Source of the DNA: Akkermansia muciniphila | GTDB lineage: Bacteria; Verrucomicrobiota; Verrucomicrobiia; Verrucomicrobiales; Akkermansiaceae | Direction of reading: 5' to 3' | NCBI GenBank assembly: GCA_945873305.1 | Contig: CAMCCX010000004.1 | Span: 1-58,748 of the forward strand | Length of the DNA: 58,748 nucleotides | Shown here: positions 17,697-47,734 of the stretch, one piece after another | Position numbering within the stretch: position 1 is the stretch's first letter | Layout: each line of letters opens with the position of its first letter | Program-made: the position numbers and the translations under genes | The notes under the pieces: model-generated | Databases searched by the model: none | Told to the model about the DNA's origin: nothing | What the model saw: the letters and a program-made list of their open reading frames with translations, nothing else

Positions 17697-18044
17697 CTAA
17701 CCGGGTGGCCATTGGAGCTGCCGGCCGCCCAGCAGATGGACGTGCAAGTGGGGCACGGCTTCGCCTCCGTCGGGGCCGTTGTTGATCACCAGCCGGTAGC
17801 CGGTTTCCGCGATGCCCTCGCTGCGCGCGACCGCGGCGGCGGTTAATAAAAGGTGGCCGAGCAGGGCCTCGTCGCCCTCGCCCGCCAGTCCCACGCGGGG
17901 GATCGCCTTGCGCGGGATGACGAGGATGTGCAGCGGAGCCTGCGGCGAAATGTCGCGGAAGGCCACGCAGCGCTCGTCTTCATGGACGATGGTCGCGGGG
18001 ATTTCCTTGTCACAGATTTTTTCAAACAGCGTCTTCGCGGACAT
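17697..18044 (-). CDS. HIT-family nucleotide-binding hydrolase
   Basis: A 115-residue histidine-triad protein of the HINT type. The conserved start (TLFEKICDKEIPA), the LHILVIPRKAI strand and the catalytic triad HLHVHLLGG near the C-terminus are all present. HINT proteins hydrolyse purine nucleoside phosphoramidates. The start at 18044 is preferred over an upstream in-frame ATG because it matches the family N-terminus. It lies directly upstream of the lipase-like gene. Confidence 0.92.
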   Translation of the reverse strand: MSAKTLFEKICDKEIPATIVHEDERCVAFRDISPQAPLHILVIPRKAIPRVGLAGEGDEALLGHLLLTAAAVARSEGIAETGYRLVINNGPDGGEAVPHLHVHLLGGRQLQWPPG

Positions 18045-18092
18045 AACGGGGGGAGAATGGCAGGGCGGCCGGGCCTTGCAAGAGGCGATGTG

Positions 18093-18155
18093 GCGGCGAT
18101 CACCGGTCGCCGCGAATGGAAGAAAATGAATTCGCGGCAAGCGGCGATCGCCGCT
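18093..18155. repeat. REP-like pair of inverted palindromic units
   Basis: Two units of about 25 bases face each other. The first has a 7-bp stem (GCGGCGA/TCGCCGC, 18093-18113). The second contains a perfect 16-base palindrome at 18140-18155 (AGCGGCGATCGCCGCT). Between them GCCGCGAAT at 18109-18117 pairs with ATTCGCGGC at 18130-18138. The pattern resembles a bacterial interspersed mosaic element. It lies just before the CPXCG gene. Confidence 0.55.
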
Positions 18156-18166
18156 ACGCTGCCGCC

Positions 18167-18337
18167 ATGGATCTCGCCGAAGTCACCTGCCCGACCTGCT
18201 TCGAAGTCTTCGAAGTCGCCTTGCCGCACCCGGATGAAATGCCGGCGGAGGTGGACTACGATTGCGAAATCTGCTGCCGCCCGATGATGATCGTTTTCAC
18301 GGAAAACGAGGTTTACGCGAAGGGGTTGGGGGAATAG
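18167..18337 (+). CDS. CPXCG-motif cysteine-rich small protein
   Basis: A 56-residue protein with CPTC (residues 8-11) and CEIC pairs, the two halves of a zinc knuckle, matching the CPXCG-motif cysteine-rich protein family. These small proteins are widespread and of unknown function. The ATG at 18167 begins the conserved MDLAEVTCPTC; the longer frame would run through the palindromic repeat. It lies alone between the HIT gene and the convergent TVP38-like gene. Confidence 0.8.
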   Translation: MDLAEVTCPTCFEVFEVALPHPDEMPAEVDYDCEICCRPMMIVFTENEVYAKGLGE

Positions 18338-18412
18338 CCGCCTTATCACGGGGGAAACCTACACTGCGGATTTGGAAAATCGACTTTTTGAAAGGGTTGG
18401 CTGTTTTCAAAT

Positions 18413-19078
18413 TCAGGGAAGATCGGGCGGGCCGACATTCTTGACGAAGCGCTTGCGGACGAGATAGCCCGCGAAAACCAGCACGAAGGAAACGCCGAAG
18501 ATGAGGTAAATCCACTTGGCGTCGAAGCTCATCACGGCGCTGCCCGCGCCGACCGGAATCAGGCAGAAGAAGATGTAAACCGGCGCGCCGGCCGACAAGT
18601 AGATCCGGAAGGGAATGTCGGTGAGCGCGAGCAGATAGAGCTTGGCGGCATAGGGCGGGCCGTGCACGGCGGCGAACAGCATGGTGAACCAGGCGCGGTG
18701 CCCGGCCCGGATGGCGGGGATGGAATAGCCCGCCCGCTTGAGGCGCTCGCTCACCCGCTGGCGGAATCCGCCGTGGGCGAGACGGAACGCGGCGAAATGA
18801 TGGAACAGCATTCCACCCGCCGCCAAAGCCATCCCGCCGCCGAGCCCGAAGCGGACGCCGGCGAGCACGAGTAAAATGCTAACGGGAAAACCCAACAGCG
18901 GGAGGATCAGGAATGCCAGGATGAATCCGGCGGCGGGAAGCGCCAAGCCGTGCGCCATGACGGACTCACGCGTCAGCTCGCCGCGGTGCGCGTGGAGAAA
19001 CCATCCCGCCATCGCTAACAAGACGAGTGCCGCCCCTAACTTCCAAGGATGCCGCAGCAGCTTTTCAGGAAAGTTCAT
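18413..19078 (-). CDS. TVP38/TMEM64 (DedA-like) family membrane protein
   Basis: A 221-residue integral membrane protein of the SNARE-associated/TVP38 (DedA-superfamily) type. Hydrophobic segments lie near residues 15-28, 45-75, 80-100, 128-150, 160-180 and 190-210; FPVSILLVLAGVRFGL is the family's re-entrant-loop region and HGPPYAAKLYLLALTDIPFRIY resembles the second. Relatives move or scramble phospholipids. It is the last gene of the four-gene overlapping operon and overlaps the fusion gene by 14 bases, which points to work on the same lipid pathway. Confidence 0.8.
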   Translation of the reverse strand: MNFPEKLLRHPWKLGAALVLLAMAGWFLHAHRGELTRESVMAHGLALPAAGFILAFLILPLLGFPVSILLVLAGVRFGLGGGMALAAGGMLFHHFAAFRLAHGGFRQRVSERLKRAGYSIPAIRAGHRAWFTMLFAAVHGPPYAAKLYLLALTDIPFRIYLSAGAPVYIFFCLIPVGAGSAVMSFDAKWIYLIFGVSFVLVFAGYLVRKRFVKNVGPPDLP

Positions 19079-21494
19079 GGCGGGCGGGCAGCGTGAGTTC
19101 CGCGCAGAGTGGCAGGTGGTCCGAGGCCATCACCGCCGTCGGCGTGTCTGGCAGCTCCACGCGCTCGACGGAGAAATGGCGGCTCACGAAAATATGATCG
19201 ATCCTCATGAACGGCTTCACCGAGGTGAAAGTGGAGCGCGGCTTGTGGTTGTCGGCGCAGAGCTGGACGTCGCGGAAACGCTGCTGCAAGCGTTGGAAAA
19301 CGCTGGAACGAGGCCCGGAGTTGAAATCGCCGCAGAGGATCATGGGTTCGTTTTCCGGAATGTCCCCCAGCCAGTCCCGGCCTAGCAGTTGATCGACCTG
19401 GCGGCGTTTTTCCTCACCGCCAAGTCCGAAGTGGGTGTTGATGAAATGAAAGGGCCGCCGCCCGTCGAACTCGAGCTGCACCCAGATCGCACCGCGAGCC
19501 TCGCGGAAAATCCGCCGCTCGGCCCCGGTCAGGTGGGCGGCTTTCACAATGGTGAAGGGAAACTTCGAGAAGATCGCGATGCCGTAGCGTTCCCTTTCCT
19601 CCTCGAACATGGCGTGGAAAACGTGGCTCATCCGCAAGTGGTCGGCAATGAGTTGCGATTGGTCGTGGCCGCCGCTGCGGAACCGGTGCGAATCGACTTC
19701 CTGGACCGCGACGACATCGGGGTCGAAGTGGTTGATGACGCGCGCGACGCGCTCGGGGCGGACCTTGCCGTCGAGGCCGCGGCAGCTATGGATGTTATAA
19801 GTCATCACCCGGACGGTTAGGTCGTCCTCGCGGGCGCGGTGATGGGGCACCCGCTCCTCGCGGGTGCCGTCGCGGCCGAGGAAGTGCATGGCGATTTTAC
19901 GGAGGTCCTCGCCGCGCACGCGGTTGCGGGTGTTCTGCAGATGCGCCACGTGCCAGCGCTGGATGCGGTCCGGCACTAGCAGGAAGCCGCGTGTCTCCTC
20001 CGCTCCCGGCCCGCCGTGGGCGCCGTTTTCCATCGGGAAACTCAGCGATGGTTCCTGATAGTCCCAGCCGCTGAGTACGAAATCCCCGGCGTCGGGATGG
20101 CGGCAGAGCGCGACCAGGTCCGCCGCGGCCTCGTCCAGAAAGGGATGCGCGGGCCCCAGGATCTCAGCGCGGTCTTCCGGCAGTTTCCACGCCCCGCGGC
20201 GATTGAAGGCGCGGACGCAGTCGGGGCCGGGCAGCAAGACCAGCGGGATTCCGGCGGTTTCCACCAGCCCGTGCGCGTAGAACTCCATTTCCGGCGGCAA
20301 CGGATTTACTGGCAGATAGAGATGGCTCACCGGTCCCATGGCGGTGACGACGATCTGCGTGGCCGGAGCGGGAGCGGCGGCTTGCTCGTGGCTGGCGGGC
20401 TGGAGGCCGAAGAACTGCCGCCAGCGGTCGCGGGTGTGGGCGACGACTTCGGGCAGGCGGCTGATCCAGATTTCCCTGCCTGACAGAGAGCCGCGGGAGA
20501 ACACCTCCCGCAACGCGTCGCCGATGCCGCGGCCGTAGCGGGTCGCGTAAGGAATGGTCCGCTCCTGGCCATGGTCGGAATAGACGATCCATTCGTAGTC
20601 GCGGTAAGTGGATTGCCCGGCCACGCGGCAGATGTCGCGGATCGCGCCGTCGATGCCTTTCAGCGCCCGATGCGCGAAGGCGGAGTCCGGTCCGCGACGG
20701 TGCGCTTGTTCATCGTAGCCGACCAAATTCGCGTGGATCACCTGCACGCCGTTTTCAATGTCGAGCATCACCCGGAAGCGGATGAGTTCGCGCAGCAGAA
20801 TGCTGAAAAACACCCGCGCCGGGACGAAGCCGATTTCATTGTAAAACGCCTGGCGCTGGCGGACGCCCTTGAAGGCATCGACGATGGCCAAGCCCGTCTC
20901 GAGCAAGACCAACGCGATCATGCGCAGGATTTTAGGCGCGTAAAGAGTCGAGAGGATCAGCCACTTGACCGGGTTCAGCTGCCTCAAAACCTCCGGCATC
21001 GCGGTGTCCTGGGAACAGTAATGGGAGAAGTCCGCACCGCCCCGATAGACGTCCAGATAGGCTCGCCCGTGCTTCAAGAGCGGGTCGGGGCACTGCTCCG
21101 CCAGCTCACTTTGGATTTCCGCCGCGGCGGTGGATTCATACATGCGGAGAACCTTGCCCGTCTTGCGGCGCATGAATTCGAAGCTGGGCACCGCGGTGCG
21201 GATGCCGAAGAAAATCTCGCCCTGCACCGCGGGAGTGGTGGACGGCAGGCCGGAGTAAAAACTCTCTAACGTGAAGTGTCCGCGGCGGATCAACCGTCTG
21301 AGAAACGGCAGCCGTCCGCTCGCCAACGCGCGCTCGAACTCGGTGCGCGACAGCCCGTCTATCTGGATCATGACGAGTCCCGGCTCGTCGGCCTCGCCAA
21401 GGGGAGCCTTGAGGCCGAGCAAGCGCGCCGCCCAGTGCGTGCGGCTCAACCTCCGCCGCAACCATCTCCAACCGACGACGATGTTGCTAATCAA
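19065..21494 (-). CDS. Alkaline phosphatase superfamily - EEP hydrolase fusion
   Basis: An 809-residue two-enzyme fusion. Residues about 38-540 are an alkaline-phosphatase-superfamily (type I phosphodiesterase-like) domain: Asp46 in QIDG, the nucleophile region LPSTTPA (Thr86/Thr87), YDEQAHRRG, SDHG and a final NGAHGG metal ligand. Residues about 173-205 are hydrophobic and may contact the membrane. Residues about 559-809 are a complete endonuclease/exonuclease/phosphatase domain (TYNIHSCRG, VQEVD, INTHFG, CGDFNS, RIDHIF, SDHLP). The likely start is TTG at 21494, overlapping the glycosyltransferase stop by eight bases. Both active sites look intact. Substrates are unknown; lipid or nucleotide phosphodiesters are plausible. 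Confidence 0.85.
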   Translation of the reverse strand: MISNIVVGWRWLRRRLSRTHWAARLLGLKAPLGEADEPGLVMIQIDGLSRTEFERALASGRLPFLRRLIRRGHFTLESFYSGLPSTTPAVQGEIFFGIRTAVPSFEFMRRKTGKVLRMYESTAAAEIQSELAEQCPDPLLKHGRAYLDVYRGGADFSHYCSQDTAMPEVLRQLNPVKWLILSTLYAPKILRMIALVLLETGLAIVDAFKGVRQRQAFYNEIGFVPARVFFSILLRELIRFRVMLDIENGVQVIHANLVGYDEQAHRRGPDSAFAHRALKGIDGAIRDICRVAGQSTYRDYEWIVYSDHGQERTIPYATRYGRGIGDALREVFSRGSLSGREIWISRLPEVVAHTRDRWRQFFGLQPASHEQAAAPAPATQIVVTAMGPVSHLYLPVNPLPPEMEFYAHGLVETAGIPLVLLPGPDCVRAFNRRGAWKLPEDRAEILGPAHPFLDEAAADLVALCRHPDAGDFVLSGWDYQEPSLSFPMENGAHGGPGAEETRGFLLVPDRIQRWHVAHLQNTRNRVRGEDLRKIAMHFLGRDGTREERVPHHRAREDDLTVRVMTYNIHSCRGLDGKVRPERVARVINHFDPDVVAVQEVDSHRFRSGGHDQSQLIADHLRMSHVFHAMFEEERERYGIAIFSKFPFTIVKAAHLTGAERRIFREARGAIWVQLEFDGRRPFHFINTHFGLGGEEKRRQVDQLLGRDWLGDIPENEPMILCGDFNSGPRSSVFQRLQQRFRDVQLCADNHKPRSTFTSVKPFMRIDHIFVSRHFSVERVELPDTPTAVMASDHLPLCAELTLPARHELS

Positions 21495-22773
21495 TGGATG
21501 CTTCGGTGGTTGGGGTTTTCATCACGGCCGCGCTCGCCGCCGACACTTTTTCGACAAACAAATCCCACTCGATGCCGATGGTGGCGAGCAGCCGGTCCCA
21601 GCCGGAAAAGTCCACGTTGGCCGGCTGTTGGTGCTCGGCGACGAGCTGTTTGTAGCAATGGAGCACGCGCAGCACGGAGCGCTCCTCGCCGTAATGCAAC
21701 GCGGTCTGACGGGCGTTTTCCTCGCAGAACTGGAATAGCTCCGGATTGTTCAAGATGCCGCGCAGCGAGGCGGCGAACTCGTCGGCGGACGCGTCGCCTG
21801 CCAGAAGAATTCCGTTCTCGCCGTCGTTGACGATTTCCCGCACGCCGGGTCCGTCGATGGCGACCACCGGCTTTCCCGCCGCCATCGCTTCCGCCAGCAC
21901 CAGCCCTTGCGTCTCGGTCTGGGAGGCGAAGACGAAGCAGTCCATGGCGGCGTAGGCATCCGCGAGGGCGCGGCCCATCAGGGTGCCGACGGCGTGGACG
22001 CGCCGCTTGCCCGCGCTGTGGCGGAGAATGGCTAACATTTCCTCGCGGGCCTCGCCGTCACCCACGACGAGGAAAACGGTCGATGGATCGGCTTCGAGGC
22101 ACTTGGCGACGGACTCGGTTAGAAAGATGAGGTTCTTTTCCTTGGCGAGCCGCCCGACGTGGCCGATGACCTTGGCGTCGCGCGGAATGCCGAGTGTCTT
22201 CCGGCAGCGCTCGCGGTTTCCCGAGGCGAAGAATTCCAGATCGATGCCGGTGGGGATGGACTGGATGGGCGTGGTCACACCGCGCTCGCGCAGCAGCCGG
22301 GCGATGCTGCCGCTGGGAGCGATGACTTCGTCGCAGAGGTTGCAGTATTCCGTGGCCAGGCGGATGACCACGCGCCGCAGCGCGGGCGAGTCTAGCGGAA
22401 CATAGTGCGTGTAGCGCTCGTAGAGCGTGTGGTGGGTGAAGACGATGGGCACCTGCATTTTCCGTGCCTCGCGGAGCGCGGCGTCGCCTAGCAGAAACGG
22501 GTGGTGGCTGTGAATCAGGTCCGGCCGGAAATCCTGGATGTATTCGCGGATCACGTTGGGGACCGGGAGCTGGACCGAGAAGTCGCTGCCGTTGAAATGC
22601 TGGATCGCGGGGACGCGCAGCACGTGGGGGGACGATTCCTGCCCGTTGAAATCCGGCGCGATCACGCGGACCTCGTGGCCGTGCTCGCGGCAGGCGTCTT
22701 CCAGGGTTTTCACCGACCTCGCCACGCCGCCGACGTGAGGGAGGTAGGTATTGGTAAACATGGCGATTTTCAT
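21487..22773 (-). CDS. GT4-family glycosyltransferase
   Basis: A 428-residue GT-B glycosyltransferase of family 4. The N-terminal domain begins MKIAMFTNTYLPHVGGV and the C-terminal nucleotide-sugar domain has GHVGRLAKEKNL and the EX7E-type ETQGLVLAEAMAAGKPVVA. The opening sequence resembles diacylglycerol glucosyltransferases and PimB-like mannosyltransferases, so glycolipid synthesis is a fair inference, but the acceptor is not visible. It overlaps the upstream glycosidase-like gene by four bases and the downstream fusion by eight. Confidence 0.88.
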   Translation of the reverse strand: MKIAMFTNTYLPHVGGVARSVKTLEDACREHGHEVRVIAPDFNGQESSPHVLRVPAIQHFNGSDFSVQLPVPNVIREYIQDFRPDLIHSHHPFLLGDAALREARKMQVPIVFTHHTLYERYTHYVPLDSPALRRVVIRLATEYCNLCDEVIAPSGSIARLLRERGVTTPIQSIPTGIDLEFFASGNRERCRKTLGIPRDAKVIGHVGRLAKEKNLIFLTESVAKCLEADPSTVFLVVGDGEAREEMLAILRHSAGKRRVHAVGTLMGRALADAYAAMDCFVFASQTETQGLVLAEAMAAGKPVVAIDGPGVREIVNDGENGILLAGDASADEFAASLRGILNNPELFQFCEENARQTALHYGEERSVLRVLHCYKQLVAEHQQPANVDFSGWDRLLATIGIEWDLFVEKVSAASAAVMKTPTTEASID

Positions 22774-24995
22774 GATATTTGGAGTTGAAATTGAGTGTCT
22801 AATGGATCGGCTTCAATCGTTAGGAATCCCGGCACCGAAATCCTCACGCGCGGGGCGGCTCCTCTCCACCGCGCGTCTAACTCCAGCTGCGAGTCGGCGA
22901 GTCGCACGCTCACCTCGCCCCATGGCGTGAGCGTGGGGCCGAAGCGGATTTCCCCGCCGGCCGCCCGCCATTCCGGCAGAATGCCCGAGCCGATCACCAG
23001 TAAATCCTCCTCTTCCCTCACGAAGCAGTTGCGCATCATCATGATCCACTCGCCGGCGGCCCAGCCGTGCTGGCCGTCGCCCATGCAGCCGCCGAGCGTT
23101 TGCGGGTGGATGGCTTCGGGCCACTGGCCGGTGGGCGACGCGAGCTCCGCCACGCGGCGGACGAGCGCGGCGAACCGCGGGTCGCCCGCGCGGAGCAGCG
23201 TCTGGGCGAGGTCGAGCGTCAGGTAGGCGTTGACGCCGGAATGGATCATTTCCTGGAAAAACCCGCCTTCGTGGAAGCAGCGGTCGATGAGGAATTCCGC
23301 GGTCTTCGCGATCCGCTCGTCGCCCGGCGGATAGAGCTGGAGCGGATAGTCCGCGACCATCGAGCCGATCGCCCCCGCGTCCATCCGCCGGTCCGGCGCG
23401 GCGGGGATGGCGCCCTTCGAGCGGGACGCGGGGATGCCGGCGATGCTCGCCTCGATGCTGGCGGCGAATTCCCCGGCGAGTGCCTCCGCCTCGCCTGCCA
23501 CGGCATTGTCACCGGTGCGCCGCCAATGTCTCGCGATCGCCTTCAAGCCGCCCCAGGCCCAGAAATCGTCCCAGTAGTAGAAATCGTTAGGGCCGAGGTG
23601 TTCCGCGCTGAATCCGGCGGGCAACAGACCGCTGGCGGTGGCGCGCTTCCTCGCCAGCCAGTGCATCCCCTTGCGCAGCGCGTGCTCCATTTCCTTTCCC
23701 GGACGCTTGCCCGACAATTCCGCGTGGCGGGCGACGATCCAGAGCACTTGCCCGTTCGAGTCCCACTCGCCTTCTTGTGATAGAAAATAGCCCGCCATGG
23801 TTTGGCGGACCGGGAAGCCGGCGAGAATCCGTCCCGCGCGGTCCGACTGGCCGATGGCTGTTAGCGGGTGGAGCATCAGGCAGGCGTCGCGGAACCAGAA
23901 CCGGCGGTAGGTGTACGGGCCGGGAACTATTTCCTCAGCGGAGAGCAGCAGCAGCGTCCTGACCGCGGCGTCGTAGAGGAACTGCATCCGCTCGTCCGGG
24001 ATTCGCAGCTCCGCGGTGCCCGTCAGCGCGTGCTGCCAGGAAACGCCGGTATCCGCGCGTTTCGGCAATTCCCGGAAATCCCGCTCCAGCGTCACCGAGA
24101 CGCCCAGATCACGCGGGATGCCGGCATGAACGCGGAACAGCGCCGCGCCGGTGGCCATGCCGACGTCGCATCTCACCTCGCGCTGGCCGTTTTTGCCAGG
24201 TAGATCCAGATAGACGTCGCCCTCGGCGTAATGGGCCATCCGCAGCGAATCGGGTGGTTCTCCCAGTTTCACCGTGGCCTCGTCATTCACCCGGAAAGCC
24301 GTGCCTGACGAGTCGATGGCGATGCTCTGGACGAACTGGATTCCCTCGGGATTGTAGGGCCGCACCGCCACCACCAGCCAGCCGTCCTCATCGGAAACGG
24401 CGCGAATCTTGGTGCGGACTTCCGCGGAACCGTGCTCGGCGATTTCCATGCTCGTGGCGAGATCCAACCTGAGGCCGTCGATGCGGCAAGCGGTGGTCAC
24501 CGCGAGCGCGGGCTCCAGTAGCAAGCGCTGTTTCACTGCTTCGTCGTCGAGTTTGCTAGGCAACAAGCGCCGCCGCGAGTCGGTCACGATCCAGAAATCC
24601 AGCGACCAGCCGTCGTGCAAGGGCGTGACCAAGCCACGCGGATCCACAATCGGATAGACCGGCGCTCCGGGCAATCCCACCGCCGTCCAGTTGCGGTGGG
24701 TGAGGTTGATGTGGCTGAAGGAAAACGCCCGCGGGACGAACGATTTGTCCGCGGGATTGAACTGCCGCTCGACCCAATACGGCCAGACCCAGTCGAGGTT
24801 GTGCTGGATGGCTTTGGCGTTCACCAAGCCGCGGGCGTGGAAAACGATGCCCGCACGCAGGAGCTCCAGCGGCTCGGCCACTTCCGACGGCTGGGCGAAA
24901 CGGCGCATGCGCGCGAGCAACAACGCGGGATCCAGCACGCCGTAGCGTCGAGCCGCGTGTTTCACGAAGAATTTCCATGGCAGCCATCGGAACAT
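22770..24995 (-). CDS. Six-hairpin glycosidase-like protein
   Basis: A 741-residue protein with no signal peptide. The N-terminal half (to about residue 330) is mainly beta strand; the C-terminal part (about 345-680) is an (alpha/alpha)6-toroid of the six-hairpin glycosidase type, with YTYRRFWFRDACLM, GEWDSNGQVLW and FYYWDDFWAWGG, where acidic residues could be catalytic. Relatives include glucoamylase-, trehalase- and debranching-enzyme-like proteins. It is the first gene of the four-gene operon and diverges from prfC. Exact substrate unknown. Confidence 0.75.
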   Translation of the reverse strand: MFRWLPWKFFVKHAARRYGVLDPALLLARMRRFAQPSEVAEPLELLRAGIVFHARGLVNAKAIQHNLDWVWPYWVERQFNPADKSFVPRAFSFSHINLTHRNWTAVGLPGAPVYPIVDPRGLVTPLHDGWSLDFWIVTDSRRRLLPSKLDDEAVKQRLLLEPALAVTTACRIDGLRLDLATSMEIAEHGSAEVRTKIRAVSDEDGWLVVAVRPYNPEGIQFVQSIAIDSSGTAFRVNDEATVKLGEPPDSLRMAHYAEGDVYLDLPGKNGQREVRCDVGMATGAALFRVHAGIPRDLGVSVTLERDFRELPKRADTGVSWQHALTGTAELRIPDERMQFLYDAAVRTLLLLSAEEIVPGPYTYRRFWFRDACLMLHPLTAIGQSDRAGRILAGFPVRQTMAGYFLSQEGEWDSNGQVLWIVARHAELSGKRPGKEMEHALRKGMHWLARKRATASGLLPAGFSAEHLGPNDFYYWDDFWAWGGLKAIARHWRRTGDNAVAGEAEALAGEFAASIEASIAGIPASRSKGAIPAAPDRRMDAGAIGSMVADYPLQLYPPGDERIAKTAEFLIDRCFHEGGFFQEMIHSGVNAYLTLDLAQTLLRAGDPRFAALVRRVAELASPTGQWPEAIHPQTLGGCMGDGQHGWAAGEWIMMMRNCFVREEEDLLVIGSGILPEWRAAGGEIRFGPTLTPWGEVSVRLADSQLELDARWRGAAPRVRISVPGFLTIEADPLDTQFQLQIS

Positions 24996-25157
24996 ACATC
25001 GTCGCCTTTCATGAATGATTTCCCGGCAAAAAACCGGGGATTTAATATGGCACAGTCACGGCGGCGGCTCCAGAGGATTTCTCCAAACGGCCGAAAGAAA
25101 CCACGGTCCGGGCTTGCTCCGCGGGCGTTCCGGGCGTAGTCCGTGCGGCCCGATTTC

Positions 25158-26801
25158 ATGTCCGTCTCTCCTTACGCCATCCCCTCGCCCGCGCTCCAGC
25201 GCGAGGTGACACGCCGCCGTTCGTTCGCGATTATTTCCCATCCGGACGCCGGCAAGACCACACTGACGGAGAAATTCCTGCTCTACGGCGGCGCGCTCAA
25301 CCTGGCCGGCAGCGTCACCGCCCGGAAAAACCAGCGCGCGACGACCTCGGACTGGATGGACCTGGAAAAACAACGGGGCATTTCCGTGAGCTCCACCGTC
25401 TTGCAGTTCGAATACAAGGACTGCGTGGTCAACATCCTCGACACGCCGGGGCACAAGGATTTCTCGGAAGACACCTATCGGGTTCTAACCGCCGTTGACG
25501 CCGCCGTGATGGTGGTGGACGCCGGCAAGGGCATCGAGAGCCAGACGCGGAAACTCTTCGAAGTCTGCCGCCGCCGCGGCGTGCCGATTTTCACCTTCAT
25601 GAACAAGCTGGACCGCCCGGCCAGGCCGTCCATGGACTTGCTTGACGAGCTGGAATCCGTGCTCGGCATCCATGCCTATCCGGTCAACTGGCCGCTCGGC
25701 GACGGTCCTCGTTTCCGCGGGGTCTATGATCGCGAGCAAAAGCAGGTGCACCTTTTCCAACGCACCGTTCACGGCGCTTATCGCGCGCCGGTGGCGGTGA
25801 CGGGCATCGAGGACGAGAGCGTGAAGGACGCGGTGGAGGAGGGGACTTATCAGCAAGTTTGCGACGAGTTGGAACTGCTCGAAGGCGCGGGCGCGGAGTT
25901 CGATTTGGAAAAAGTCCTCGCGGGTGAACTCACTCCCGTCTTCTTCGGTAGCGCGGCTAACAACTTCGGCGTGCAGCTTCTGTTGGACCGTTTCCTCGAA
26001 CTCTCGCCGCCACCGACCCCGCGCGAAAGCGGCGGGATGATGATCGATCCGGCGTCCGAGGAATTCTCCGCCTTCGTGTTCAAAATTCAGGCGAACATGA
26101 ACCCGAAGCACCGCGACCGCATCGCGTTCGTCCGCATCGTGTCCGGGAAATTCGAGCGCGACATGGACGTGATCAACGGCCGAACCGGCGAGAAAGTCCG
26201 CCTGGCCAACTCGCAGCGTCTCTTCGCCCGCGAGCGCGAAACGGTGGACGACGCCTTCGCCGGCGATGTCGTCGGCCTGGTGGGGAATTACGACCTGCTC
26301 ATCGGCGACACGCTTTCCTCGCAGCCCGGCGTGACCTTCGACGAGATCCCGCGGTTCGCGCCGGAATGTTTTTCCTTCCTGCACAACAAGAGCACCGCGA
26401 AATACAAACGCTTCCGCGACGGTCTCCAACAGTTACTCAAGGAAGGCGTGGCCAGCGAGTTCGTGCTCATCGACACCGAGGGTCCGCAGATCCCGCTGCT
26501 CGGCGCGGTCGGCCCGCTGCAGTTCGAAGTCCTGCAATACCGGCTTGAAGGCGAATACGCCGCGGAGACGCGCATCGAGCCCGCGAACTGGTCGCTCGCC
26601 CGCTGGTTGAAGCCGAAGGAAGGCGACCCGCTCGCTCCCGAAGCGCGTCCGTCGCTCTCGCTCGGCGCGGCGCTTGCCCGTGACTCCAACGGCTGGTTGG
26701 TCGCCCTGCTCCCCAGCGAGTGGGCGCTGAAGACCTTTTCCGACAAGAATGAAGACTGGATCCTCTCCGAGCAGCCCTTCCCGCCGCCGAGTTTGAAATA
26801 G
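25158..26801 (+). CDS. prfC: Peptide chain release factor 3
   Basis: GTPase that recycles class I release factors from the ribosome after termination. The 547-residue protein has the P-loop SHPDAGKTT, the switch region QRGISVSSTVLQF, DTPGHKDFSEDTYR and NKLD, followed by domain II and the RF3 C-terminal domain. Start is ATG at 25158 (MSVSPYAIPSPAL); an in-frame GTG at 25143 would add five residues. It is divergent from the six-hairpin gene, with about 160 bases of intergenic DNA that hold the promoters but no visible gene. Confidence 0.96.
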   Translation: MSVSPYAIPSPALQREVTRRRSFAIISHPDAGKTTLTEKFLLYGGALNLAGSVTARKNQRATTSDWMDLEKQRGISVSSTVLQFEYKDCVVNILDTPGHKDFSEDTYRVLTAVDAAVMVVDAGKGIESQTRKLFEVCRRRGVPIFTFMNKLDRPARPSMDLLDELESVLGIHAYPVNWPLGDGPRFRGVYDREQKQVHLFQRTVHGAYRAPVAVTGIEDESVKDAVEEGTYQQVCDELELLEGAGAEFDLEKVLAGELTPVFFGSAANNFGVQLLLDRFLELSPPPTPRESGGMMIDPASEEFSAFVFKIQANMNPKHRDRIAFVRIVSGKFERDMDVINGRTGEKVRLANSQRLFARERETVDDAFAGDVVGLVGNYDLLIGDTLSSQPGVTFDEIPRFAPECFSFLHNKSTAKYKRFRDGLQQLLKEGVASEFVLIDTEGPQIPLLGAVGPLQFEVLQYRLEGEYAAETRIEPANWSLARWLKPKEGDPLAPEARPSLSLGAALARDSNGWLVALLPSEWALKTFSDKNEDWILSEQPFPPPSLK

Positions 26802-26979
26802 AAGAGGAGCCACGGGCGGCAACCCGCTTGTAATGAATTGATTTTCATCAAGTCGCGGTTCCCTGATGAATTGTAGCAATGCAAGTTGCACGAAACCGCG
26901 CGTCGTTGTAGGGTCGTCCTCCGTATTTTGGCGCAGGATTGTTCTCCAAAAAGGCCGATCCCACATTTCCCCCCGACGC

Positions 26980-28356
26980 ATGGACATTCTCATTATTGAC
27001 GACGAAAATTCGATCCGCCTGACTGCATCGCTGGCATTGGAAGCCGAGGGGCATTACGTCGAAACCGCGGAGGACGGGAAGCTGGCTTTGCGGCGGATCA
27101 AGGAGGAGCAGTTCGATCTCGTTTTCCTCGATCTTCGTCCGGGAAACGAGGACGGACTCGAATTGTTGCGGAAAATCATCGCGCTGAAACAGCCGCCGCT
27201 GGTGGTGATTTTCACGGCATGTGACGCCATTGCCACCGCCGTCCAGGCGACCCGACACGGCGCGTTTGGCTATCTCGAAAAGCCGTTCACGCCTGATGAA
27301 TTGAGAGCGGTTTTGACCAGGGCTCGAAAATCACTGATCACACGAGGCGAAGCCAAATCGCTAACGAAATCGATTCCCGAATCCACGAGCGAGGTCCGGC
27401 GTTCGCTGTCGCCACCGCTGAGTTTCTCCTCCGACGACGCGCGAAGCCGCAGAGAATTCGAGGTGTTGTTTCGCGCCGCCGGGACCCCCGCGTCGATCCT
27501 TCTCCTTGGCGAGAGCGGCACCGGCAAAAGTGTGATCGCCCGGGAAATCCATGGGCGCAGTCATTTGCGGGACAAGCCGTTTCGGACGGTGAGTTGTCCC
27601 AGCCTCTCGAAGGAATTACTGGAGAGCGAGCTGTTTGGCCACGTGAAAGGGTCGTTCACCGGCGCGATCAAGGACACGTGGGGCAAAATCCACGAGGCCG
27701 ATGGAGGAACCCTGTTTCTCGATGAAATCGGCGAGCTTCCCATCGAGATCCAGCCCAAGCTGCTGCACTTTCTTCAAGAGCGCGAATACGAGCGGCTCGG
27801 TGAAAACAAAGTTCGTGCGGCAAATGTCCGCATCATCGCCGCCACTAACTGCGACCTCAAAGCCAGCATGGAGGCGGGAAATTTCCGCGAGGATCTCTTC
27901 TATCGCCTCAACGTGATCAGCGTGACGATTCCCCCGTTGCGCCAGCGGCCAGCCGACCTGGAGCGCATCGCCAACGACTACTTGGGATATTTTTCCGCCG
28001 AACGAAGACGCAATATCAAGGGCTTCAGCCAAAGCGGTCGCATCGCATTGATGCGCCATGCATGGCCCGGCAATCTGCGGGAACTGCGCAATGCCATCGA
28101 GCGTGCCAGCATTCTGTCGGCAGGACCGGAAATCACTGCGGAGGATCTTCCGCAACCGGTTTCCTTGCCTTCCGCTGAAAACGGCGGCGAACACGGTTTG
28201 TTAGGAATCGGCGGCGAACACAGCCTCGAGGAAGTCGAAAAGGCGCATATGATGGAAGTGCTGCGCTGGGTCCCCTCGCTCAGTGAGGCCGCGGCCGTGT
28301 TCGGCATCGACAAAGCCACGCTCTATCGAAAGCGCAAGCGCTTCGGCCTCGAATGA
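26980..28356 (+). CDS. NtrC-type sigma-54 response regulator
   Basis: A 458-residue activator with all three expected domains. Receiver: Asp51 is the phosphorylation site and Lys101 is in EKPF. AAA+ domain: Walker A GESGTGKS (177-184), sigma-54-contact loop GSFTGA (224-229, usually GAFTGA), Walker [11 protein letters not shown] (242-251) and FREDLFYRL (302-310). C-terminal Fis-type helix-turn-helix ends the protein ([23 protein letters not shown]). The ATG at 26980 starts the receiver; the frame is open further upstream. It lies 15 bases before a decayed histidine kinase, probably its former partner, so it may now be an orphan. Confidence 0.92.
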
Positions 28357-43502: not shown

Positions 43503-47714
<4,212 letters not shown>

Positions 47715-47734
47715 TCCGATCCAGTGAATCAATC

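Follow-up and report, generated by a model that had tools for sequence, protein, structure and literature searches.

What do four overlapping genes, encoding a glycosidase-like protein, a glycosyltransferase, a fusion of two hydrolases and a small membrane protein, do for the bacterium that carries them? The question is raised by a contig of Akkermansia muciniphila (CAMCCX010000004.1; the window is the whole stretch analysed, 58,748 nucleotides), in which four minus-strand open reading frames (ORFs) lie within positions 18413-24995. The original prediction took them for one unit with stops and starts overlapping by 4, 8 and 14 bases, and the ORF coordinates bear those overlaps out. We find that the parts recur together well beyond this genome. 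The answer that we favour, with moderate confidence, is a module at the cytoplasmic face of the inner membrane that would make, trim and move an alpha-glycosylated lipid, with an optional part that would cut phosphoesters. The genes are listed in reading order (PDE, phosphodiesterase; aa, amino acids).

22770..24995, minus strand: gene 1 (P0001), GH15-like glycosidase-fold protein, 741 aa, ATG start; known from an AlphaFold model and invariant acidic residues, with no Pfam or NCBIfam match
21487..22773, minus strand: gene 2 (P0002), GT4 retaining glycosyltransferase, 428 aa, ATG start; PF13439 and PF00534; 4-base overlap with gene 1
19065..21494, minus strand: gene 3 (P0003), fusion of an NPP/alkaline-phosphatase-type PDE with an EEP hydrolase, 809 aa, TTG start; PF01663 and PF03372; 8-base overlap with gene 2
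18413..19078, minus strand: gene 4 (P0004), VTT/DedA-type membrane protein, 221 aa, ATG start; PF09335 below cut-off; 14-base overlap with gene 3

Joint recurrence of the four genes

Among 194 Verrucomicrobiota genomes, a full-length gene 1 is present in 11, the GT4 gene (E<=1e-70) in 12 and the whole PDE-EEP protein in 10. Nine of the 20 genomes with a gene 1 match were left out as carriers, as they match it only partially (24-32%), and of 128 genomes with a P0003 match, 118 were left out as carriers of the fusion because the match covers only part of the protein, mostly the EEP domain. All 11 carriers of gene 1 and all 10 carriers of PDE-EEP are among the 12 GT4 genomes, and nine genomes have all three. 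Gene 1 and the GT4 gene are neighbours (overlapping, or at most 150 bases apart) in 9 of 11 genomes and lie 8 to 11 kb apart in the other two (G088 and G091). The GT4 and PDE-EEP genes are neighbours (<=200 bases) in 9 of 10, and are about 10 kb apart in G134, which has no gene 1 match. A VTT gene directly adjoins PDE-EEP in 8 of 10, on the same strand in G000, G178 and G134 and facing it in G018, G143, G099, G010 and G045; one ORF stands between them in G088, and no VTT gene is near in G091. In G015, gene 1, GT4 and VTT lie side by side and PDE-EEP gives no match at E<=1e-10. The four parts scatter somewhat, but not independently: their presence in this phylum is patchy but joint. That every gene 1 carrier also has a GT4 gene found in only 12 of 194 genomes, and that this pair recurs outside the phylum, supports the earlier view of a real functional unit.

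A contig scan with the gene 1 alignment over 84,980 species genomes returned at least 544 related stretches, of which the best 80 were kept (L051-L130). The linkage counts that follow describe these closer relatives, and were made with profiles built from these loci, a simple ORF caller and limits of 60 bits and 6 kb. Phylum labels are genome titles, which can be wrong for binned genomes, and many contigs end early. The best 80 loci are titled from ten phyla (Thermodesulfobacteriota, Verrucomicrobiota, Pseudomonadota, Myxococcota, Planctomycetota, Sumerlaeota, Nitrospirota, Omnitrophota, Deferribacterota and Synergistota), so neither did the order prove confined to this genome nor did the genes scatter independently elsewhere. 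In a tree of these loci, Planctomycetota form one side of a branch, Verrucomicrobiota require 2 changes and Thermodesulfobacteriota 9, a pattern that would fit a mixture of descent and transfer. Four bins titled Akkermansia muciniphila (L051, L052, L053 and L090) carry a gene 1 that is 75-91% identical to that of the window; their titles look wrong, because such a spread is unlikely within one species.

Within 6 kb of gene 1, GT4 was found in 72 of the 80 loci, PDE in 38, EEP in 34 and a VTT gene of either of two groups in 32. For the 33 loci flanked by 6 kb or more in both directions, the counts are 29, 20, 20 and 16, respectively. GT4 directly follows gene 1 in 65 loci, with a 4-base overlap in 52 (42 ATGA, 8 GTGA and 2 TTGA) and no such overlap in 13. 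The exact gene order of the window on one strand does occur elsewhere, but in only 6 of 80 loci (L051, L054, L055, L056 and L090, relatives of the window, and the planctomycete L084) and in G178. Other arrangements include EEP, GT4, PDE, VTT, GH (glycoside hydrolase) in L088, where EEP (233 aa) and PDE (556 aa) are separate genes; GT4, PDE-EEP, VTT, GH in L091; and GT4, PDE, VTT, GH in L079. Because gene order changes, the fusion splits and two VTT groups are used, function rather than inertia would hold these genes together, and the linkage exceeds local synteny. Distances among gene 1 proteins parallel those among their GT4 partners (Mantel r 0.858 for 69 pairs; no value above 0.139 in 2000 permutations), but the test cannot tell co-evolution from shared descent.

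The module is rare and patchy. In 118 genomes sampled evenly from the phylum of Desulfurivibrio, gene 1 (E<=1e-80) was found in one, which is the centre of the sample itself. Spread on plasmids was considered and rejected, a search of plasmids with P0001 giving a single match, a different protein (24% identity). Carriers titled as cultured strains are Reinekea blandensis MED297, Marinobacter sp. F4216, Microbulbifer donghaiensis, Lacipirellula limnantheis, Desulfurivibrio sp. AMeS2 and Haloferula sp. BvORR071, and with these the module is open to experimental test.

Folds and active sites of the encoded proteins

P0001 has no Pfam match, also at E<=10, and no NCBIfam match, and a profile search against PDB sequences returned nothing significant (top match a bacterial glucoamylase, E 0.46); on these grounds we rejected assignment of gene 1 to a named glycoside hydrolase family by sequence. 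The GH15 profile PF00723 does not match P0001 at E<=10, and 3 of 57 aligned proteins match it weakly, below its cut-off (best E 0.0098). The AlphaFold model (mean predicted local distance difference test score, pLDDT, 86.5) combines a beta-sandwich with a six-hairpin (alpha/alpha)6 barrel. Its best fold matches by Z are 9ju0 dextran dextrinase (33.1, 531 residues) and the glycosidase 5z3c (32.3), which we take to be a GH15 isomaltose glucohydrolase, followed by bacterial glucoamylase 1lf6 (31.3, 527 residues) and glucodextranase 1ug9 (31.0, 530 residues). Members of GH65, GH133-type, GH78, GH125, GH116 and GH94 also reach Z>=25, the fold being common to several families, and Foldseek's own ranking puts GH94 phosphorylases on top. 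In the predicted model, the GH15 type is thus the nearest fold for gene 1, but not exclusively so.

Six acidic residues, D370, E410, D412, E465, D476 and E627, do not vary among the 57 aligned proteins. An hhalign comparison of the P0001 family with a GH15 alignment is weak (probability 26%, E 7e-4) and pairs D370 of an RDA motif, E465 and E627 with invariant GH15 residues. In this weak register E465 stands opposite E404 and E627 opposite E569 of the GH15 alignment, positions that we take to be those of the general acid and base. We predict that E465 and E627 are the catalytic acid and base of gene 1, with D476 as an alternative acid. P0001 has no evident signal peptide or transmembrane segment, and because there is no transmembrane hydropathy peak (highest 19-residue value, 1.17) we infer a probable cytoplasmic location. 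Residues 30-71 at the N-terminus are conserved, yet have pLDDT <50 in the model, and we draw no conclusion from that stretch.

P0002 belongs to GT4 by its Pfam matches (PF13439, E 2e-37, 129 bits; PF00534, E 7e-35, 120 bits), and both glutamates of its E-x7-E motif (E287 and E295), together with R208 and K213, are kept in 25 of 25 aligned proteins. Its top NCBIfam match is alpha-monoglucosyldiacylglycerol (alpha-MGlcDAG) synthase NF049988 (E 5.8e-51, full length, 174.1 of 400 bits needed), and its second is GlcN-phosphatidylglycerol synthase NF053787 (full length, 131 of 480 bits). The alpha-MGlcDAG synthase model is matched by 25 of 25 aligned GT4 members. From these matches the GT4 would lean to lipid acceptors. 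We also considered a defence system and rejected it: 0 of 4 proteins match PADLOC models (E<=0.001), and a GT4-conflict Pfam match (E 1e-3, below cut-off) is general GT4 likeness.

P0003 combines an NPP-type phosphodiesterase (approximately residues 36-550) with an EEP hydrolase (approximately residues 557-805), and its TTG start agrees with the start of aligned relatives (consensus N-terminus MIxRI). PF01663, the type I phosphodiesterase family, is matched at E 2e-8 with 34.9 bits (cut-off 23), and each of the 28 aligned proteins matches it at E<=0.001; PF03372, the EEP family, is matched at E 5e-30 (105 bits over a cut-off of 24.5). Both active sites are complete in 28 of 28 aligned proteins: D46, T87, D261, H265, D307, H308 and H493 (7 of 7 expected) for the two-metal site and threonine nucleophile of NPP, and N567, E599, H688, D723, N725, D766, D792 and H793 (8 of 8 expected) for EEP, with roles that we assign by motif from what we take to be the family patterns. 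In the model, the EEP half superposes on 4ruw (Z 30.0), bacterial mannosyl-6-phosphatase 4c1r (26.4) and human neutral sphingomyelinase 8j2f (25.3), and the PDE half on ENPP5 (5veo, Z 23.6), ENPP6, ENPP7 and Xac NPP (Z 23 to 24). All 28 aligned proteins also show a PGAP2IP domain match in their EEP half. Residues 189-207 of the PDE half form a hydrophobic helix (median hydropathy peak 2.14 over 34 proteins), which would fit an enzyme at the membrane surface.

The closest plasmid-borne, free-standing relatives of the EEP domain are rhizobial (42-45% identical). In Rhizobium bangladeshense, the sole annotated neighbourhood examined, such a gene (about 44% identity to the EEP domain) adjoins genes for a phospholipase-D-like protein and a lysylphosphatidylglycerol-synthase-domain protein. 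A shorter protein with an EEP domain at 348 bits and a remnant-scoring PDE at 114 bits is encoded directly after gene 1 at L122:11046-12371 (plus strand), with no GT4 nearby.

P0004 matches PF09335 at E 5e-5 with 24.2 bits, under the cut-off of 33.9, and has four hydropathy peaks over 1.7; P0004 and its relatives match this family at E<=0.001 in 16 of 17 cases (P0004 + 16 relatives). Two VTT groups stand beside the module. One is divergent and resembles P0004; the other is canonical and sits immediately upstream of gene 1 in 13 loci. Both canonical members tested (L111 and L119) pass the PF09335 cut-off (95 and 85 bits). Two small genes (about 200 aa each) lie beside the facing VTT gene in 4 of 8 verrucomicrobial loci of families f5/f10 (L035:11813-13066 and matching stretches in L033, L034 and L040).

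A glycolipid reading and its rivals

We propose a glycolipid module because the likeness of the GT4, EEP and PDE parts, together with the VTT protein, points to a membrane lipid, and gene 1 points to removal of alpha-linked sugars. In this scheme the GT4 would attach a sugar (probably glucose) in alpha linkage to a lipid, for example diacylglycerol or phosphatidylglycerol. In the same compartment, the GH15-like protein would remove or rearrange alpha-linked sugars on the GT4 product and so set the size of the product or recycle it. Where a genome encodes a PDE-EEP protein, the target of that protein at the membrane surface would be a phosphodiester headgroup. The NPP domain would cut the diester, and the EEP domain would cut a second ester or remove the remaining phosphate, which could supply the GT4 acceptor. 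The VTT protein would move or scramble the lipid between leaflets; PMC10127716 argues that DedA proteins of the COG0398 type are phospholipid scramblases and not undecaprenyl-phosphate flippases, and P0004 is a divergent VTT protein. The original prediction had left the product as a membrane glycolipid or a cell-surface glycan. The first is the better reading, given the GT4 nearest the alpha-MGlcDAG model, the PGAP2IP match, the PDE helix and the two VTT groups, and nothing points to a surface glycan.

A bolder version, which we put forward as possible though doubtful, is an undescribed bacterial glycolipid cycle in which a new GH15-related family, intracellular and membrane-facing, would work against a dedicated GT4 on the same alpha-glycosylated lipid, and which NPP-EEP and VTT would couple to phospholipid turnover and leaflet exchange; such a module for editing lipid head sugars would be shared patchily by many phyla.

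Several observations weigh against the glycolipid reading. All its substrates, the direction of the reactions, the order of the steps and the location of gene 1 are inferred. P0002 stands outside both lipid-enzyme equivalog families and, with 174 bits against a required 400, comes nowhere near the MGlcDAG synthase cut-off, 25 of 25 GT4 members also match non-lipid models such as MshA, and the nearest solved relatives of P0002 are of the MshA type as well as the PimA type. The PDE-EEP part is dispensable: 16 hand-picked carriers without PDE at the locus have 0 PDE-domain matches elsewhere (E<=1e-10), and six have only an EEP-like match. Among the 33 fully flanked loci, three have gene 1 without any partner, one more has PDE and EEP without GT4, and only 16 have VTT near gene 1. 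Promoter scans covered the 70 loci with enough sequence upstream of gene 1, and a Pho box of the E. coli type, which may not hold in these phyla, was found (>=10 of 14 bases) in 8 of 70 upstream regions, vs. 15 of 70 shuffled and 16 of 70 coding controls.

A core of GH and GT4 would equally fit intracellular glycan recycling, and this is the strongest rival, although we consider it rather unlikely. Here the GT4 would elongate a soluble oligo- or polysaccharide in the cytoplasm and the GH15-like protein would cut it to give primers, with PDE-EEP and VTT as later additions for anchoring or another use. The combination found most constantly is indeed GH with GT4 (29 of the 33 fully flanked loci), GT4 is the sole partner in 6 of 33, and the parallel distances of gene 1 and GT4 agree with such a pairing, with shared descent not removed. 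The gene 1 barrel also superposes on MmpH (7qsj, Z 27.6, 311 residues), which together with the GT4 ManT is a published precedent, that of mycobacterial methylmannose polysaccharide (PMC9883506). What glycan recycling leaves unexplained is why PDE, the EEP domain and two VTT groups keep joining the GH and GT4 pair, and why the nearest GT4 models are lipid enzymes. The four-gene set in the window also has no methyltransferase. A phosphate-saving lipid swap of the PlcP-Agt kind, in which PDE-EEP would strip the phospholipid headgroup and the GT4 would glycosylate the freed diacylglycerol under phosphate starvation, shares the logic of a phospholipid hydrolase with a GT4, and the EEP and PDE folds match sphingomyelinase-type enzymes. 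We nevertheless regard it as improbable: Pho boxes are not enriched, many carriers lack PDE-EEP, no role is given to gene 1, although it is the most constant part, and PlcP, which we take to be a metallophosphoesterase, is of a different family. PlcP-Agt remodelling is established in other bacteria, and a Desulfovibrio Agt homologue matters under phosphate limitation (PMC5193443).

That unrelated genes sit side by side through descent alone, as chance or housekeeping neighbours, is very improbable. Order is partly inherited in close relatives, and some Desulfobacteraceae loci (clusters C5, C7, C8 and C10) share other neighbours too. Against this, these families come together in varying order, strand and fusion state in loci titled from ten phyla, host neighbourhoods differ, and presence in the 194 Verrucomicrobiota genomes is patchy but joint. 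The glycolipid module remains the reading that we prefer. If true, it would be an unrecognised route for making or editing glycolipids in Verrucomicrobiota, Planctomycetota, sulfate reducers and marine gammaproteobacteria. It would also place a large glycosidase-fold family, for which neither Pfam nor NCBIfam has a model, in a function-linked context, assign a role to NPP-EEP fusions and offer a direct test bed for the cargo of bacterial VTT-type proteins.

Some features near the module in the window stand apart from this argument. A release-factor-3-like gene (GTP_EFTU, RF3_C; 25143-26801, plus strand) is divergent from the module and begins on the opposite strand 147 bases from the gene 1 start, which makes gene 1 the first of its transcription unit. 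At 25020-25040, shortly before gene 1, a G+C-rich stem is followed by a T-rich stretch; such matches are near chance in the region (9 found, 7.6 expected). A fifth gene candidate, the ORF at 17843-18349 (minus strand), was rejected: it has no relative in 11 loci compared, its translation resembles a chance frame, and it scores weakly in Pfam, under the cut-off. An NtrC-type sigma-54 response regulator is encoded at 26866-28356 (plus strand), and relatives 48-50% identical to it lie within a few kb of PDE-EEP in G134 (L037:5079-6425) and G088 (L038:12379-13848); it may be a regulator of the module or a coincidence. We do not claim sigma-54 control, since the excess in a -24/-12 scan (>=9 of 11 bases) was slight at best (16 of 70 upstream regions vs. 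11 of 70 shuffled and 6 of 70 coding controls). Farther away, antisense ORFs of about 1400 codons each occupy the same stretch (43503-47714, plus strand, and 43530-47732, minus strand), one presumably the shadow of a long repetitive or high-GC gene.

Comparison with known systems

In the open-access library searched we found no description of the module or of the gene 1 family, nor any paper that combines the parts, which does not prove absence in print. The family and the module appear uncharacterised, while the enzyme kinds are known. Closest to gene 1 are GH15 glucoamylase, glucodextranase and isomaltose glucohydrolase: their fold matches the whole chain, yet identity is 11-13% and P0001 has no PF00723 match. 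For the GT4, alpha-MGlcDAG and GlcN-phosphatidylglycerol synthases are the best full-length NCBIfam matches, and P0002 is below both cut-offs.

The original prediction pointed to E. coli ybhP beside clsB, and the gene order ybhP-clsB-ybhN offers a parallel. The hint gains indirect support from the free-standing genes closest to the EEP domain, in the single rhizobial neighbourhood with annotation. As in the module, the neighbours of an EEP protein there are a lipid headgroup enzyme and a lipid-mover domain. The module differs in that GT4, PDE and GH-like proteins replace the phospholipase-D-like enzyme (ClsB, named as YbhO in PMC8027125), and VTT replaces the YbhN-type protein. PlcP-Agt shares with the module the logic of a phospholipid hydrolase and a GT4 lipid glycosyltransferase, whereas the module has different hydrolase families and an extra glycosidase. 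Finally, the mycobacterial cluster for methylmannose polysaccharide (MmpH and ManT; PMC9883506) resembles the module in placing a six-hairpin glycosidase with a fold like that of gene 1 beside a GT4. That cluster serves a soluble polysaccharide and includes a methyltransferase, with no PDE, EEP or VTT part, and gene 1 differs from MmpH by an extra N-terminal part and a beta-sandwich.

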